The translations under genes and the position numbers were made by a program. DNA of 64,000 bases from Sulfurovum lithotrophicum (GTDB lineage: Bacteria; Campylobacterota; Campylobacteria; Campylobacterales; Sulfurovaceae), in contig NZ_CP011308.1 in NCBI RefSeq assembly GCF_000987835.1, positions 682,001 to 746,000 of the forward strand. Reading direction: 5' to 3'. Below are positions 17,689 to 22,845 of the stretch, one piece after another; the stretch's first letter is position 1; each line of letters opens with the position of its first letter. The notes under the pieces were generated by a model that was not told the DNA's origin, searched no databases, and saw only the letters and a program-made list of their open reading frames with translations.

Positions 17689-19569
17689 CTATATATAGGC
17701 ATCGAGTTTTTTTGGCATACCAAGATGATAGCCCTGTATAAAGGTGATATCCAGTTTGCATACCTCATCATAGATCTTTTGGTTTGAAACATATTCGGCA
17801 ACAAGATCATAACCGAATTTTTCAGCAAGAATCTTGATGGAACCGATGACTTCACGTGCTTTCACGTTGTTCAATTCAAGTTCACGTATTAAACTGCCGT
17901 CTATTTTAAGTATGTCAACATTCAGACGAATAAGGTAACTGTAGTTGGCAAACCCGCTTCCAAAATCATCAATAGCGATCTTTGAACCATGCTCTTTTAG
18001 TTGGCTGAAAATAAAGTTCACCCTGTCATAATCACGTATTTCATTCTGTTCAAGAATTTCAAAAGTCAAGCGGTTGGCAAGCTCTTTATGGGTATAAAGG
18101 TACTCCATGATCATATGCATCATATCATGATTGTAAAGATCATCAAGATCGATATTTACCGAAAACTCTGTATTTTCATATTTCTCAAGCATCCTGAAAA
18201 CATCTCTGAGTACGAGTTTGCTCATCTTGATATAGTAATTTGTTCCTCTGATGATCGGGATGAAGTTATTGGGTACAATGAGAAAAGATTCATCCTCTTT
18301 ATCGACAAGACGCACCAAGGCTTCAAATTTTGCAATCTTTTTGCTTTGCGCATAATAGATAGGCTGATAGAGACACACCAGACGCTCTTCATCAAGTGCT
18401 TTCTTTATATCATCTACATCGCGATGCTTCATCTCACGATAGCTTTGAAGTTCCAATATCTTCAGATCATTCTTGCCTCTGCTCTTGATCTTAAACAGTT
18501 CTTCATCAAGCAGACGCAATACATGCTGTATATCGGCCGTTCCTTCAGGGATCTTAAGTGCACTCATTGAAAGCGTCATGCGAACGACTTCGTTCTCTAC
18601 AAGATAACGTTTTTCATTTATCGTATCAAAGATTCTTTGTGTAATCATATTCAGTGAATCACCCTTATTCATGATCACAAAAAATTCTGCCCCACCGATC
18701 CGAATAATCAATGCATCTTCAGGCAGAAGTGATGTAAGTGTCTGGACAAACTTTTTGAGTACTATATCACCCTTTTCATAACTTAGTGTTCTGTTGATCT
18801 CCTTGAATTCGTCAATATCGATCAATATAGCATTATACCGGTCAACAGGATTGCGGTTGAAGAACTCTTCCATGTAGAGTTTTGTTTTTGCAAAGGTCAA
18901 TGGGTCGATAAGGATTTGTTTTCTGAACATATAGTACTTATATGTGACAATAATTAAAAAGAGAAAACTGGCTCCAAGAAATACTTGTATTAAAATGATC
19001 ACACTGTGTAGAGGTGAATTGAAATCATCAATGTACTCTCCGTACCACTTAGAAAGATCAAGTACAAGTAGCGCTTCTGTTTTTCCATTCAGTACCACCG
19101 GATATAGTACAGAGAGCCAGACACCCTTGACATCATCTTTCTGCTTGATGATCTTTACTTGCTGTGTGCGGTAAACGTCATTAAAGAGCGTACTCCCCGG
19201 AAAGAAAGGGGTATTGTATTCCTCCTTATCCTTTTTTGAGCCGTCAAGTAAAAAACGGTAATGGTTTTTTTTGTCTTTTTTGAGTAAAAATATATATTGG
19301 TATTTTGGTATGATAAATGCCTCGAGCATCTCATTGAGCTCTTTTCTCAATGCGGGATCAGATGCAAGACGTTCTGAAAGATTCTTTCCGCCTCTTCGTA
19401 TGATCCACTCAGCAATATTTTTTGCATAGACTTCTGTTTTGTGTATCTCTTGTTGCCGCAGCTTTTTAGTACTTTCAGTGACCATATACTGCATATAGGC
19501 AGCGAATATGATCATCAAGGTCAATAAAAGTGCAGTAGCCCTTGTTGTAATGAGATGGTTGAGTCTCAT
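17689..19569 (-). CDS. Membrane sensor with degenerate GGDEF and intact-looking EAL domain
   Basis: 626 residues. Transmembrane helix 1 is at about 13-31, a periplasmic sensory region at about 32-185, and helix 2 at about 187-208. GGDEF (about 215-375) reads RIGGAEFFV, so the Asp of GGDEF is Ala and cyclase activity is doubtful. EAL (about 385-620) keeps KFEALVRL, FSVNIDL, FEILEQ, AIDDFGSGFANYSYL, DILKIDGSLI and VAEYV...QGYHLG, the usual catalytic set. It is therefore probably a c-di-GMP phosphodiesterase regulated by a periplasmic input. It is last in a three-gene operon, overlapping the periplasmic-protein gene by 4 nt. Confidence 0.87.
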   Translation of the reverse strand: MRLNHLITTRATALLLTLMIIFAAYMQYMVTESTKKLRQQEIHKTEVYAKNIAEWIIRRGGKNLSERLASDPALRKELNEMLEAFIIPKYQYIFLLKKDKKNHYRFLLDGSKKDKEEYNTPFFPGSTLFNDVYRTQQVKIIKQKDDVKGVWLSVLYPVVLNGKTEALLVLDLSKWYGEYIDDFNSPLHSVIILIQVFLGASFLFLIIVTYKYYMFRKQILIDPLTFAKTKLYMEEFFNRNPVDRYNAILIDIDEFKEINRTLSYEKGDIVLKKFVQTLTSLLPEDALIIRIGGAEFFVIMNKGDSLNMITQRIFDTINEKRYLVENEVVRMTLSMSALKIPEGTADIQHVLRLLDEELFKIKSRGKNDLKILELQSYREMKHRDVDDIKKALDEERLVCLYQPIYYAQSKKIAKFEALVRLVDKEDESFLIVPNNFIPIIRGTNYYIKMSKLVLRDVFRMLEKYENTEFSVNIDLDDLYNHDMMHMIMEYLYTHKELANRLTFEILEQNEIRDYDRVNFIFSQLKEHGSKIAIDDFGSGFANYSYLIRLNVDILKIDGSLIRELELNNVKAREVIGSIKILAEKFGYDLVAEYVSNQKIYDEVCKLDITFIQGYHLGMPKKLDAYI

Positions 19570-20009
19570 AAGCTCTCCACAATGAAAGGACGGTACTCTT
19601 GCGGCAGTTCAATATGATGTTCTTTCAATCTTGAATCAATGAAAAGAAGCTGCGAACGCCCTTTTTTCCAATATAGCGCTCCGATAATACCAGCGTGATC
19701 TTTCAGTAAATGATAGTCTGTAGCAAATACCAATATCTGCTTATTACGTTGCAATACATCATGAAGCCGTTCATATGCGTTTTCATTCGATACGATGATA
19801 ATATCCGATGCCTCAGGTACATTGACAATTTTAATCTCATGTGATCTTGCAAAGATAGAGTGAAGTTCCGGATCAGCCGTATATATTTTGACGGTATCAC
19901 TTCCTGCCAAACTTGTCAACAGCTCACGATACACTTGCAGTGTACTCTTCTTCTCCCAAGCATACAAATGACCATATAGCAAGCTTAAAAAGAGCAGTAT
20001 TCTAATCAA
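19566..20009 (-). CDS. Small periplasmic protein linking receptor and c-di-GMP enzyme
   Basis: 147 residues: a signal peptide (IRILLFLSLLYGHLYA) then a single alpha/beta domain with alternating strands (VKIYTADPEL, IKIVNVPEASDIIIVSN, KQILVFATDYHLL, IGALYWKKGRSQLLFID). The arrangement resembles YfiR-like or ligand-binding periplasmic domains, but I do not recognise a named family. Four-nt overlaps on both sides (TonB receptor upstream, GGDEF/EAL downstream) suggest that the three proteins act together, with this one carrying the signal across the periplasm. Confidence 0.65.
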   Translation of the reverse strand: MIRILLFLSLLYGHLYAWEKKSTLQVYRELLTSLAGSDTVKIYTADPELHSIFARSHEIKIVNVPEASDIIIVSNENAYERLHDVLQRNKQILVFATDYHLLKDHAGIIGALYWKKGRSQLLFIDSRLKEHHIELPQEYRPFIVESL

Positions 20010-21883
20010 AACAGGTACTCCAGTTCAATCGTAAAACGTCTGTCTATCGGTGTAACGGAGAGCGGTTCCATTATTGTAGGCGGCTGGGTGGTGACATCAA
20101 GCCGATATAGTTTTGTCTTTTTTGCCCTATTGAGTATATTGTCACCCTTTAACGTAATACTCAACTGTTCTGTCAGATTCCATGAAACAGTACTTGTCCA
20201 GTCAAGATAATTCTTCCAGTCCAAACTGTTTCTATGCCATACAAGTCCATTGTAAAAATCAAAATTTCCATAACTATTGAAGAAGCTGAAATATCCGCTG
20301 ATGTCATCCAGGTTGTCCAGGTTAAAAATATTATTGTACCGTGCATAGTAAAGCTGTAAATTTAATTTATTGTCTCTGTCGAATGCATAATCATAATTCA
20401 AAATGGCTGTATAGTACTCTGTTTCCCCCGTATTGGCAATAAGTGAGTTCTTCAAAAGCCCATTCTCATCTTTCATCATATGTAAAATGAGACGTATTTG
20501 CTGATTCTTAGTATGAAAGGAGACCTCCTGAGTGAAACCAAGTGTGGTTTGTGCTTCCGCCGTTAAAGTCTGCTCAGGGTAAAAATAGCGCATCAAAGGT
20601 TCAAGTGCGACCTGTGTTCGGTAAAGATACGCTTTGTAGCCCCATTCATCACCCGTAAAGATATACCCTAATCTCAACTGAAGCAAGGAGTCATTTGTCA
20701 CACCACCATTGCGTACAATATAGTTGTAGGAGAGCCCAGCACTCAACAATTGATCCTCGGTCAGCATATATTGGTCCTGAAAAAAGAGTGAACCGATTAT
20801 TTCATGTGAAAAGTCAAAAGCATCTGTTCCCATATTTTCACTTTTTAAGGAGTCAAAAGACTTGTACCGTCCTTTTACACCTGCTGTAATATGGTGATTT
20901 TTAAAAACATCGTTATAGGTAAGATCAGCTGTATAAGTACTGTTTTTACTTTCTCCGATGAAAGTATTGTTTTGATTTACACCATTCCACCAGGCGAAAG
21001 GTTTGTCATCAATATAGTTCATATCGGTTTTTAACCAATCATACGATATCTGAGCATGCAATACGGAAGAAAGATCAATACCGTAATCCATGTGTAGATT
21101 CAAATAATTCGTATTGGACTCAATCGGTGTAGCATCCCAGCTGGGTCCGGCAAATGAATCTGTACGTTTATCCATGATCTGAAGATGAAAAATCTGTGTA
21201 TCTGTTTTAATGTAGGAAAATATCTGTGTACGTTCAAAGTCACGACTCAAAGGGACCGGTGTACCGTTATCGACCTTCTCGCGTATCGCATTGGTATGCG
21301 AAAGATTGACCATGTATGAAAAGTTTTCTCTCTGCTCTCCATAACTGGCAGTCTGCATATTGTAGCCACGACTTCCCTGAATGAGACTTACTTTCCCGCC
21401 ACTGTCACGCTTGGGGTCTTTGGAGTAAAGATAAATTGTCAAAAAAGCCGGCTCGACCGATGTTTCAAAAGAGGGTGTCAAATAATAAAACTCGATATGG
21501 TCTACAAAATCTATATTGACATCTCCGTAAAGTACCAGTCCGCTCCCAAGCCATCCCTGCGTAATCTCTACTCCGTCAATAAAAAGTCTGATAAAGTTGC
21601 TTCTGTACGGTTCAAAGCTTCCAGACGTAAGCGGATCGGGTAAGGCATACCGGTTCTCATGATAGTAGATAACTGGGGTGGTCTTGAAAACATCTTTCAG
21701 TGTTTTTGCATGCATTCTTTCAAGTTTTTCCCTGGTAAAAAGAACAAGATGCCCTTTATTCGCATCGATCGTTTTCTGGCTCAATGCATTTTGTCTGTCA
21801 TACTCTTTAAGTAAGCTGTTGATATCCCCTGCCTCTGTAAATACAAAAAAAACAAAAGTTAACAGTATATATTTCAATGGCAT
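20006..21883 (-). CDS. TonB-dependent outer-membrane receptor
   Basis: About 625 residues from ATG 21883, chosen because GAAGGAAG lies about 7 nt upstream and a clean signal peptide (PLKYILLTFVFFVFTEAG) follows. The frame opens 20 codons earlier. A plug domain follows (ERMHAKTLKDVFKTTPVIYY, then FIRLFIDGVEI). The rest is a beta-barrel of amphipathic strands, with the terminal strand ending RFTIELEYLF (C-terminal Phe). The ligand is unknown. Because it heads an operon with a periplasmic protein and a c-di-GMP enzyme, it may serve as a signal receptor as well as, or instead of, a transporter. Confidence 0.82.
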   Translation of the reverse strand: MPLKYILLTFVFFVFTEAGDINSLLKEYDRQNALSQKTIDANKGHLVLFTREKLERMHAKTLKDVFKTTPVIYYHENRYALPDPLTSGSFEPYRSNFIRLFIDGVEITQGWLGSGLVLYGDVNIDFVDHIEFYYLTPSFETSVEPAFLTIYLYSKDPKRDSGGKVSLIQGSRGYNMQTASYGEQRENFSYMVNLSHTNAIREKVDNGTPVPLSRDFERTQIFSYIKTDTQIFHLQIMDKRTDSFAGPSWDATPIESNTNYLNLHMDYGIDLSSVLHAQISYDWLKTDMNYIDDKPFAWWNGVNQNNTFIGESKNSTYTADLTYNDVFKNHHITAGVKGRYKSFDSLKSENMGTDAFDFSHEIIGSLFFQDQYMLTEDQLLSAGLSYNYIVRNGGVTNDSLLQLRLGYIFTGDEWGYKAYLYRTQVALEPLMRYFYPEQTLTAEAQTTLGFTQEVSFHTKNQQIRLILHMMKDENGLLKNSLIANTGETEYYTAILNYDYAFDRDNKLNLQLYYARYNNIFNLDNLDDISGYFSFFNSYGNFDFYNGLVWHRNSLDWKNYLDWTSTVSWNLTEQLSITLKGDNILNRAKKTKLYRLDVTTQPPTIMEPLSVTPIDRRFTIELEYLF

Positions 21884-22041
21884 TGTATTTCTTCCTTCAA
21901 TATTCAACCTCCTTAAATACATGCATTTATTATATCCTTTCACTCATAAAATTTCCTTTTCAAAAGATTATAATATTTATTATTCTATACTAATACTTAC
22001 TATTACACTTTGGAATATATCTTGATTTAACAGAGAGCAGC

Positions 22042-22845
22042 ATGACGGAACCTTCTATTTTTCACCTTTTGACAGAAGTGTACTCGCTTCATCTTGCTGT
22101 GACCGAACAAGATATTGAGTCAGTAAAACAGGTACGTAAAGAAGCACTTTTGCCGGCATATCAGACCTATGCGGATATTGAAGATGAATCTGCTTTTCTC
22201 TATAACCGGGATGATGAACAGTCTTTTATCTATCTGCTTCAGCATAACGCTACCCAAAAATATGTGGGTACCATACGGGTTTTTTTTGTTAATGACGCCA
22301 CACCCATCCAGAAGATCCCCATGCAGATATACGGTCATGTTAAAGAGATAGAGTCCTACGTAGCCGAACATCCCGTCTGTGAAGTTTCAAGACTTGCACT
22401 TTCCGGTTCTATCGAACCGTATGAAGGGCTTTCGGGATTGCGCTTGCGTACATACCTGACCGTAGGATTGATGTCGGCCATTGGTATTAATGCATTTCTC
22501 TACCCGTGCAATTCTATTTTTGCCATTATGGAGCCTGCACTGTACCGTATTTTAAAACGACAGGGGATTGATTTCGAACCGGTTGGTCCGGCAGTTGAGT
22601 ATTATGGGAAGCGTATTCCTCACATGATCGGGAGAAAAGATTTGATCTTCGGGTCAAAAGAGATCCTCGGAGAGATCACTCTCCACTATCTTTCCAAACT
22701 TTGCCAAGATCCGGACAGGTTTTGGGCATTTGTTGACAGACATCCCTATCTCGACCGTTCCAACATGCATCTTTCAAAAATCTGTCAATGTTTTGAGAAA
22801 GCGACACAACCGGTCAGTATACCGTCACTCTATATAGGTACATAA
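22042..22845 (+). CDS. GNAT-type acyltransferase resembling exosortase-associated / N-acyl amino acid synthases
   Basis: 267 residues. It has the pattern of PEP-CTERM/exosortase-associated acyltransferases, related in fold to LuxI and FeeM. Visible parts are an N-terminal VRKEALLPAYQTY, DDEQSFIYLL, KYVGTIRVF, the EVSRLALSG strand, and the C-terminal block AIMEPALYRILKRQGIDFEPVGPAVEYYGKRIPH. Such enzymes acylate small molecules such as amino acids or homoserine lactone; the product here is unknown. No exosortase or PEP-CTERM protein is seen nearby. It is divergent from the TonB receptor operon, sharing a 158-bp AT-rich intergenic region. Confidence 0.7.
   Translation: MTEPSIFHLLTEVYSLHLAVTEQDIESVKQVRKEALLPAYQTYADIEDESAFLYNRDDEQSFIYLLQHNATQKYVGTIRVFFVNDATPIQKIPMQIYGHVKEIESYVAEHPVCEVSRLALSGSIEPYEGLSGLRLRTYLTVGLMSAIGINAFLYPCNSIFAIMEPALYRILKRQGIDFEPVGPAVEYYGKRIPHMIGRKDLIFGSKEILGEITLHYLSKLCQDPDRFWAFVDRHPYLDRSNMHLSKICQCFEKATQPVSIPSLYIGT

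Follow-up and report, generated by a model that had tools for sequence, protein, structure and literature searches.

YfiR-YfiN is a known relay from the periplasm to c-di-GMP, which Malone et al. (2012, PMC3375315) presented as a modular core whose outputs are GGDEF-EAL, HPT or kinase; YfiB is mostly missing from the YfiR-YfiN systems of distant species (PMC3375315). Signalling by TonB-dependent receptors is known to run through anti-sigma/ECF pairs. NspS, the partner of MbaA in Vibrio cholerae, binds polyamines and has the classical two-lobed build. The locus described here lies in a window of 64,000 nucleotides (the whole stretch of DNA analysed) from Sulfurovum lithotrophicum, and comprises a TonB-dependent-receptor-like gene, a gene for a secreted 147-aa protein (P147) and a gene for an inner-membrane GGDEF-EAL protein. 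On balance, we favour the view that this trio is a conserved Yfi-like transenvelope signalling module with the receptor in YfiB's place, although the contacts, the direction of control and the ligand are inferred. Gene organisation and the fold of the partner protein tie a conserved receptor lineage to c-di-GMP turnover via a YfiR-like relay, offering an outer-membrane sensor for Yfi-like systems that have no YfiB.

The features of the locus are collected in Table 1. The first-pass annotation had described three genes overlapping by 4 nt each and encoding a TonB-dependent receptor, a small periplasmic protein and a membrane GGDEF/EAL protein. Positions and overlaps were confirmed, and both 4-nt junctions were found again in most relatives, so the overlaps are more than chance. 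The receptor assignment held at the family level, the window member alone being weak; the small periplasmic protein held as a secreted protein with the YfiR fold, and the membrane protein held with the refinement that its GGDEF motif is degenerate and its EAL residues are intact. What had been overlooked is the divergent acyltransferase gene, which is part of the conserved unit. For the receptor gene the ATG start was adopted; a GTG at 21943 is a possible alternative, but the alignments of relatives begin at about the ATG.

Table 1. Features of the trio and its divergent neighbour (positions in the window).
Feature	Position	Strand	Remarks
Periplasmic single-Cache/PAS-like sensor domain	19012..19464	minus	about residues 36-186
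Degenerate GGDEF domain	18457..18918	minus	GGAEF at residues 292-296
EAL domain	17713..18411	minus	catalytic motifs intact (EAL, NxD, EILE, DDFG, KID, AEYV, QG)
TM-Cache-TM-GGDEF(degenerate)-EAL inner-membrane protein	17689..19569	minus	626 aa
ATGA stop/start overlap, YfiR-like gene to GGDEF-EAL gene	19566..19569	minus	spacing kept in most relatives
Secreted YfiR-like protein (P147)	19566..20009	minus	147 aa; TTG start; signal peptide about residues 1-17
TTGA stop/start overlap, receptor gene to YfiR-like gene	20006..20009	minus	arrangement common to most clade relatives
TonB-dependent-receptor-like outer-membrane protein	20006..21883	minus	625 aa; plug + barrel; C-terminal Phe
AT-rich intergenic region common to acyltransferase and receptor operon	21884..22041		
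LuxI/FeeM/TIGR03694-superfamily acyltransferase	22042..22845	plus	267 aa; divergent from receptor

The assignment as a TonB-dependent receptor is weak on the single window sequence and firm for the family. Alone, the window protein matched only Plug in Pfam, at E 0.045 and below the cut-off (hits at E<=1 were considered), whereas in its family Plug was recognised in 32 of 37 members (best 7e-6) and the TonB-dependent barrel in seven (best 2e-7). The top match of the family profile in the PDB was the plug of BtuB (E 0.005), and the N-terminus carries a conserved peptide, LSxKT...FTR. TonB is encoded in the genome, where TonB_C was found twice, and a canonical TonB box was not recognised by eye in the receptor N-terminus. 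That the usual anti-sigma/ECF pair is missing, as had been noted at the outset, also held: no STN signalling domain was found in the window receptor (Pfam, E<=1), and no FecR anti-sigma factor was found genome-wide. The sigma factor near the locus has regions 1.2 to 4, as in primary sigma factors, and together with the missing FecR this led us to reject an ECF/anti-sigma route. Two relatives (L084:5099-6992; L073:842-2717) have the receptor gene broken into two overlapping frames, possibly through sequencing error or decay.

No Pfam family matched P147, and none matched more than one of its relatives. DUF4154 (PF13689) in particular was matched neither by P147 nor by any of the 58 aligned members, and no DUF4154 protein was found in its own genome; a profile search of the PDB by sequence also gave no meaningful match. 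An AlphaFold2 model built from 58 sequences (pLDDT 90.3) nevertheless placed YfiR (4yn7; Z 9.6 over 129 residues, 3.4 A) among its top structural matches. Also in this set were two substrate-binding domains, 3lkv at Z 10.3 and 3lft at Z 10.0, and 5z6v, a single-domain binding protein from R. marinus (Z 8.9); other folds started at Z 6.6. Comparison of the P147 profile with that of Campylobacterota DUF4154 gave a probability of 88 (P 2.9e-6, 133 columns), against 0.3 for an unrelated control. Based on the fold match and the profile match, P147 is probably a remote YfiR-like protein lying outside DUF4154 as defined by the curated model, a reading that rests on prediction. Since the fold is about equally common to substrate-binding-protein domains, P147 could instead bind a small ligand. 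The best conserved motif of the protein is GAxYWxKGRxQLxF.

For residues 1-240 of the GGDEF-EAL protein, AlphaFold2 predicted a TM-Cache-TM arrangement (pLDDT 90.6), with the extracellular domain of WalK as the structure closest to the Cache domain (Z 15). No HAMP domain was found by Pfam. Members of the window clade carry a degenerate GGDEF motif (GG[ATSG]EF and similar) together with intact EAL residues, which makes the window protein likely to be a c-di-GMP phosphodiesterase, as inferred from sequence alone. The GGDEF-only members of other clades carry GGEEF and, on the same kind of evidence, should be cyclases.

P147 relatives were found in 53 of the 150 genomes of the window's family, and the close ones preserve the trio, usually with identical overlaps. 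Searching genome contigs with the P147 sequence by itself gave no matches, whereas an alignment query recovered 60 named loci, most with a receptor directly upstream, from Sulfurovum, Sulfurimonas, Sulfurospirillum, Nautiliaceae, Persephonella, Aquificaceae and Hydrogenothermaceae amongst others. The pair of receptor and YfiR-like protein thus spans Campylobacterota and is also present in Aquificota. Within the phylum, 56 of 298 genomes, belonging to 21 of 58 genera, have a member of the YfiR-like family; amongst loci sampled from these 56 genomes, the receptor lay upstream in 20 of 20 and a protein with the same sensor domain downstream in 18 of 20. Across all tabulated loci the receptor is adjacent in 69 of 81, a few places being counted twice because the collections overlap. 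Of the 12 remaining loci, one is at a contig edge and 11 form a single sister group.

It was also observed that the receptor, the YfiR-like protein and the sensor are retained while the output domain changes, which the computation shows directly. Where receptor and YfiR-like gene are kept, the third protein, with classes verified by Pfam scans, is GGDEF-EAL at 42 loci, GGDEF alone at five (one cut by a contig end was left out), a histidine kinase at seven, and a histidine kinase followed by a REC-PAS-EAL protein at nine. At least six changes among these four output classes are required on the receptor tree. Three of the four classes are expected to act on c-di-GMP, the kinase class doing so via its REC-PAS-EAL partner, although this is likewise read from domain content only.

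Some side observations on these loci deserve recording. In the receptor-less sister group (L100, L106, L108-L111, L115, L116, L123, L127 and L128) the YfiR-like and GGDEF-EAL genes are about 100-220 bp apart, and the group is often divergent from a 320-321-aa gene resembling trpS. At L102 (8862-11753) a kinase-type module has as its neighbour a histidine kinase of 963 aa that contains NMT1/THI5-like and SBP_bac_3 domains; the kinase parts of this protein and of the kinase within the module are 70% identical.

Canonical DUF4154 genes were found in 21 of the 298 phylum genomes. Most of the 19 such loci inspected adjoin a receptor-sized gene, often with a GGDEF or kinase gene, and all ten of the receptor-sized neighbours scanned were genuine TonB-dependent receptors. 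A receptor in YfiB's place would fit the gap left in distant Yfi systems without YfiB. The term 'TonB' does not appear in the text of PMC3375315, and no description of YfiR/DUF4154 and TonB-dependent receptors as one system was found in the open-access literature; this is weak evidence, since only openly licensed papers were searched. The DUF4154 loci of other Campylobacterota with TonB-dependent receptor neighbours are L203-L216, and in L213, L214 and L215 a single long reading frame joins the DUF4154 domain to a further output region.

Of the flanking genes, only that of the acyltransferase is conserved in relatives, lying next to the receptor and divergent from it at 18 loci of the clade. 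It is present as a single copy in the genome. The family matched Autoind_synth in 11 of 18 members (best 7e-5) and FeeM in eight (best 5e-6), and TIGR03694 was matched at E 9.5e-22, yet below the cut-off of that model. The window protein alone matched no Pfam model at E<=0.1, and a profile search of the PDB gave no meaningful match, so its identity rests on Pfam and NCBIfam. An invariant Glu (residue 114), followed by Ile/Val-Ser-Arg, characterises the family; a Glu is catalytic in Nas354 and has been proposed as catalytic in FeeM (PMC4897644). Among the N-acyl amino acid synthases, which are similar to autoinducer synthases, one is known to carry a c-di-GMP-binding domain (PMC4897644).

Of the 21 genomes in the genus that have the window-type trio, 18 carry the acyltransferase, against none of at least 23 others (Fisher P 1e-9, a value that overstates independence because the genomes are related). 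In two of the three trio genomes without it, the contig breaks off immediately upstream of the receptor. The acyltransferase without the trio was seen in one genome, from another genus, and a phylum-wide sample gave only two weak matches besides the window's own, the gene being almost confined to the genus. At two more distant loci, L089 and L090, the receptor has no acyltransferase beside it. As the sole conserved neighbour, co-occurring with the trio, it raises the possibility that the ligand in the window clade is a self-made acyl signal, both the ligand and the product of the enzyme being inferred; given its restricted distribution and its absence at distant loci, such a ligand is plausible for the clade only and cannot serve the whole family. 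If so, it would be a candidate acyl signal in vent-type bacteria, in which biofilm control is poorly known. A bolder, tentative reading is that the four genes form a self-contained circuit for cell-to-cell signalling, in which the enzyme may make an N-acyl amino acid or similar, the receptor may sense it at the cell surface, and the signal may be relayed through the YfiR-like protein to the c-di-GMP phosphodiesterase. In effect, a TonB-dependent-type receptor would perform quorum sensing straight into c-di-GMP, with neither a sigma factor nor LuxR involved. The CinA-like, MFS and RpoD neighbours were rejected as members of the unit, none being conserved beside the trio. A weak exosortase match with an in-frame stop (G000:C1:21444-21926, L232) lies far from the locus.

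In the mechanism proposed, the receptor-like protein would sense an external ligand via its barrel and plug and pass its state to the secreted YfiR-like protein, which would in turn bind or release the periplasmic Cache domain of the inner-membrane protein. The binding state of the Cache domain would set the activity of the EAL phosphodiesterase, with the degenerate GGDEF acting as a regulatory domain at most. Gene order and its conservation, the YfiR fold, the Cache sensor and the intact EAL residues are shown by computation; the protein contacts, the sign of regulation, any TonB dependence and the ligand are all inferred. Counting against the relay are the lack of a Pfam match for P147, the receptor-less sister group, the missing HAMP domain and the failure to recognise a canonical TonB box. 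The signal path from outer membrane through periplasm to phosphodiesterase suggested by the first-pass annotation is thus supported as a route, whereas its remark that it knew of no described system with this composition held only in part, YfiBNR being a close functional parallel. Its suggestion would have been refuted if the three genes did not co-occur in relatives, or if the receptor matched a well-known transporter of unrelated function. The proposed conservation check was run and held, the trio co-occurring in relatives across the two phyla, and the receptor matched no known transporter, the BtuB plug being the best PDB match of its profile, so that the second outcome did not arise either.

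The receptor might alternatively be an ordinary nutrient transporter, with P147 as a single-domain substrate-binding protein that shows the imported ligand to the Cache sensor; a periplasmic substrate would then tune c-di-GMP in the manner of NspS-MbaA, and the receptor would merely supply it. The resemblance of P147 to ABC substrate-binding domains (3lkv and 3lft) and to 5z6v supports this reading, as do the precedent of a periplasmic binding protein paired with a GGDEF-EAL enzyme in NspS-MbaA and the receptor-less sister group, which needs the periplasmic part only. However, neither an ABC permease nor any other importer is conserved next to the trio, the single-domain P147 is without the second lobe of a classical binding protein, and bona fide YfiR genes have the same receptor partnership. 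We regard this explanation as unlikely. Less likely still, and by a clear margin, is that the genes are merely co-regulated: joint use, in biofilm dispersal or surfactant production for instance, would explain the operon, and the receptor would not signal to the phosphodiesterase. Operon membership by itself is indeed no proof of signalling, but the receptor and YfiR-like protein persist while GGDEF-EAL gives way to GGDEF or to a kinase with REC-PAS-EAL as the output, which co-expression alone does not predict, and the arrangement is conserved in two phyla.

Returning to the favoured relay, its parts may be set against described systems. The acyltransferase shares the GNAT superfamily and the invariant Glu with the N-acyl amino acid synthases (FeeM, Nas354; TIGR03694), but falls below the TIGR03694 cut-off and has no exosortase gene adjoining it. 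FecA-FecR-FecI likewise uses an outer-membrane TonB-dependent receptor as a sensor across the envelope; the trio differs in that its receptor shows no STN domain, FecR was not found in its genome, and the output is c-di-GMP, not an ECF sigma factor. In NspS-MbaA a periplasmic protein also controls an inner-membrane GGDEF-EAL enzyme, but that system has no outer-membrane receptor. The closest likeness is to YfiBNR/TpbB of Pseudomonas aeruginosa (HmsCDE in Yersinia), which has the same tripartite layout of outer membrane, periplasm and inner membrane, a periplasmic protein of YfiR fold and a periplasmic Cache/PAS-type sensor on the c-di-GMP enzyme; the swapping of output domains known for Yfi (PMC3375315) is also seen in the trio family. 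Where YfiBNR has the Pal-like lipoprotein YfiB, the trio has a receptor-like barrel with no Pal-like gene in the operon; its YfiR-like protein lies outside DUF4154 by Pfam, and in place of HAMP and an active GGDEF there is an EAL enzyme with a degenerate GGDEF and no HAMP found. Unlike YfiBNR, the trio adjoins an acyl-synthase-like gene. By analogy, the module probably works like YfiBNR, but it is not YfiBNR, since the outer-membrane part, the periplasmic sequence family and the output all differ.
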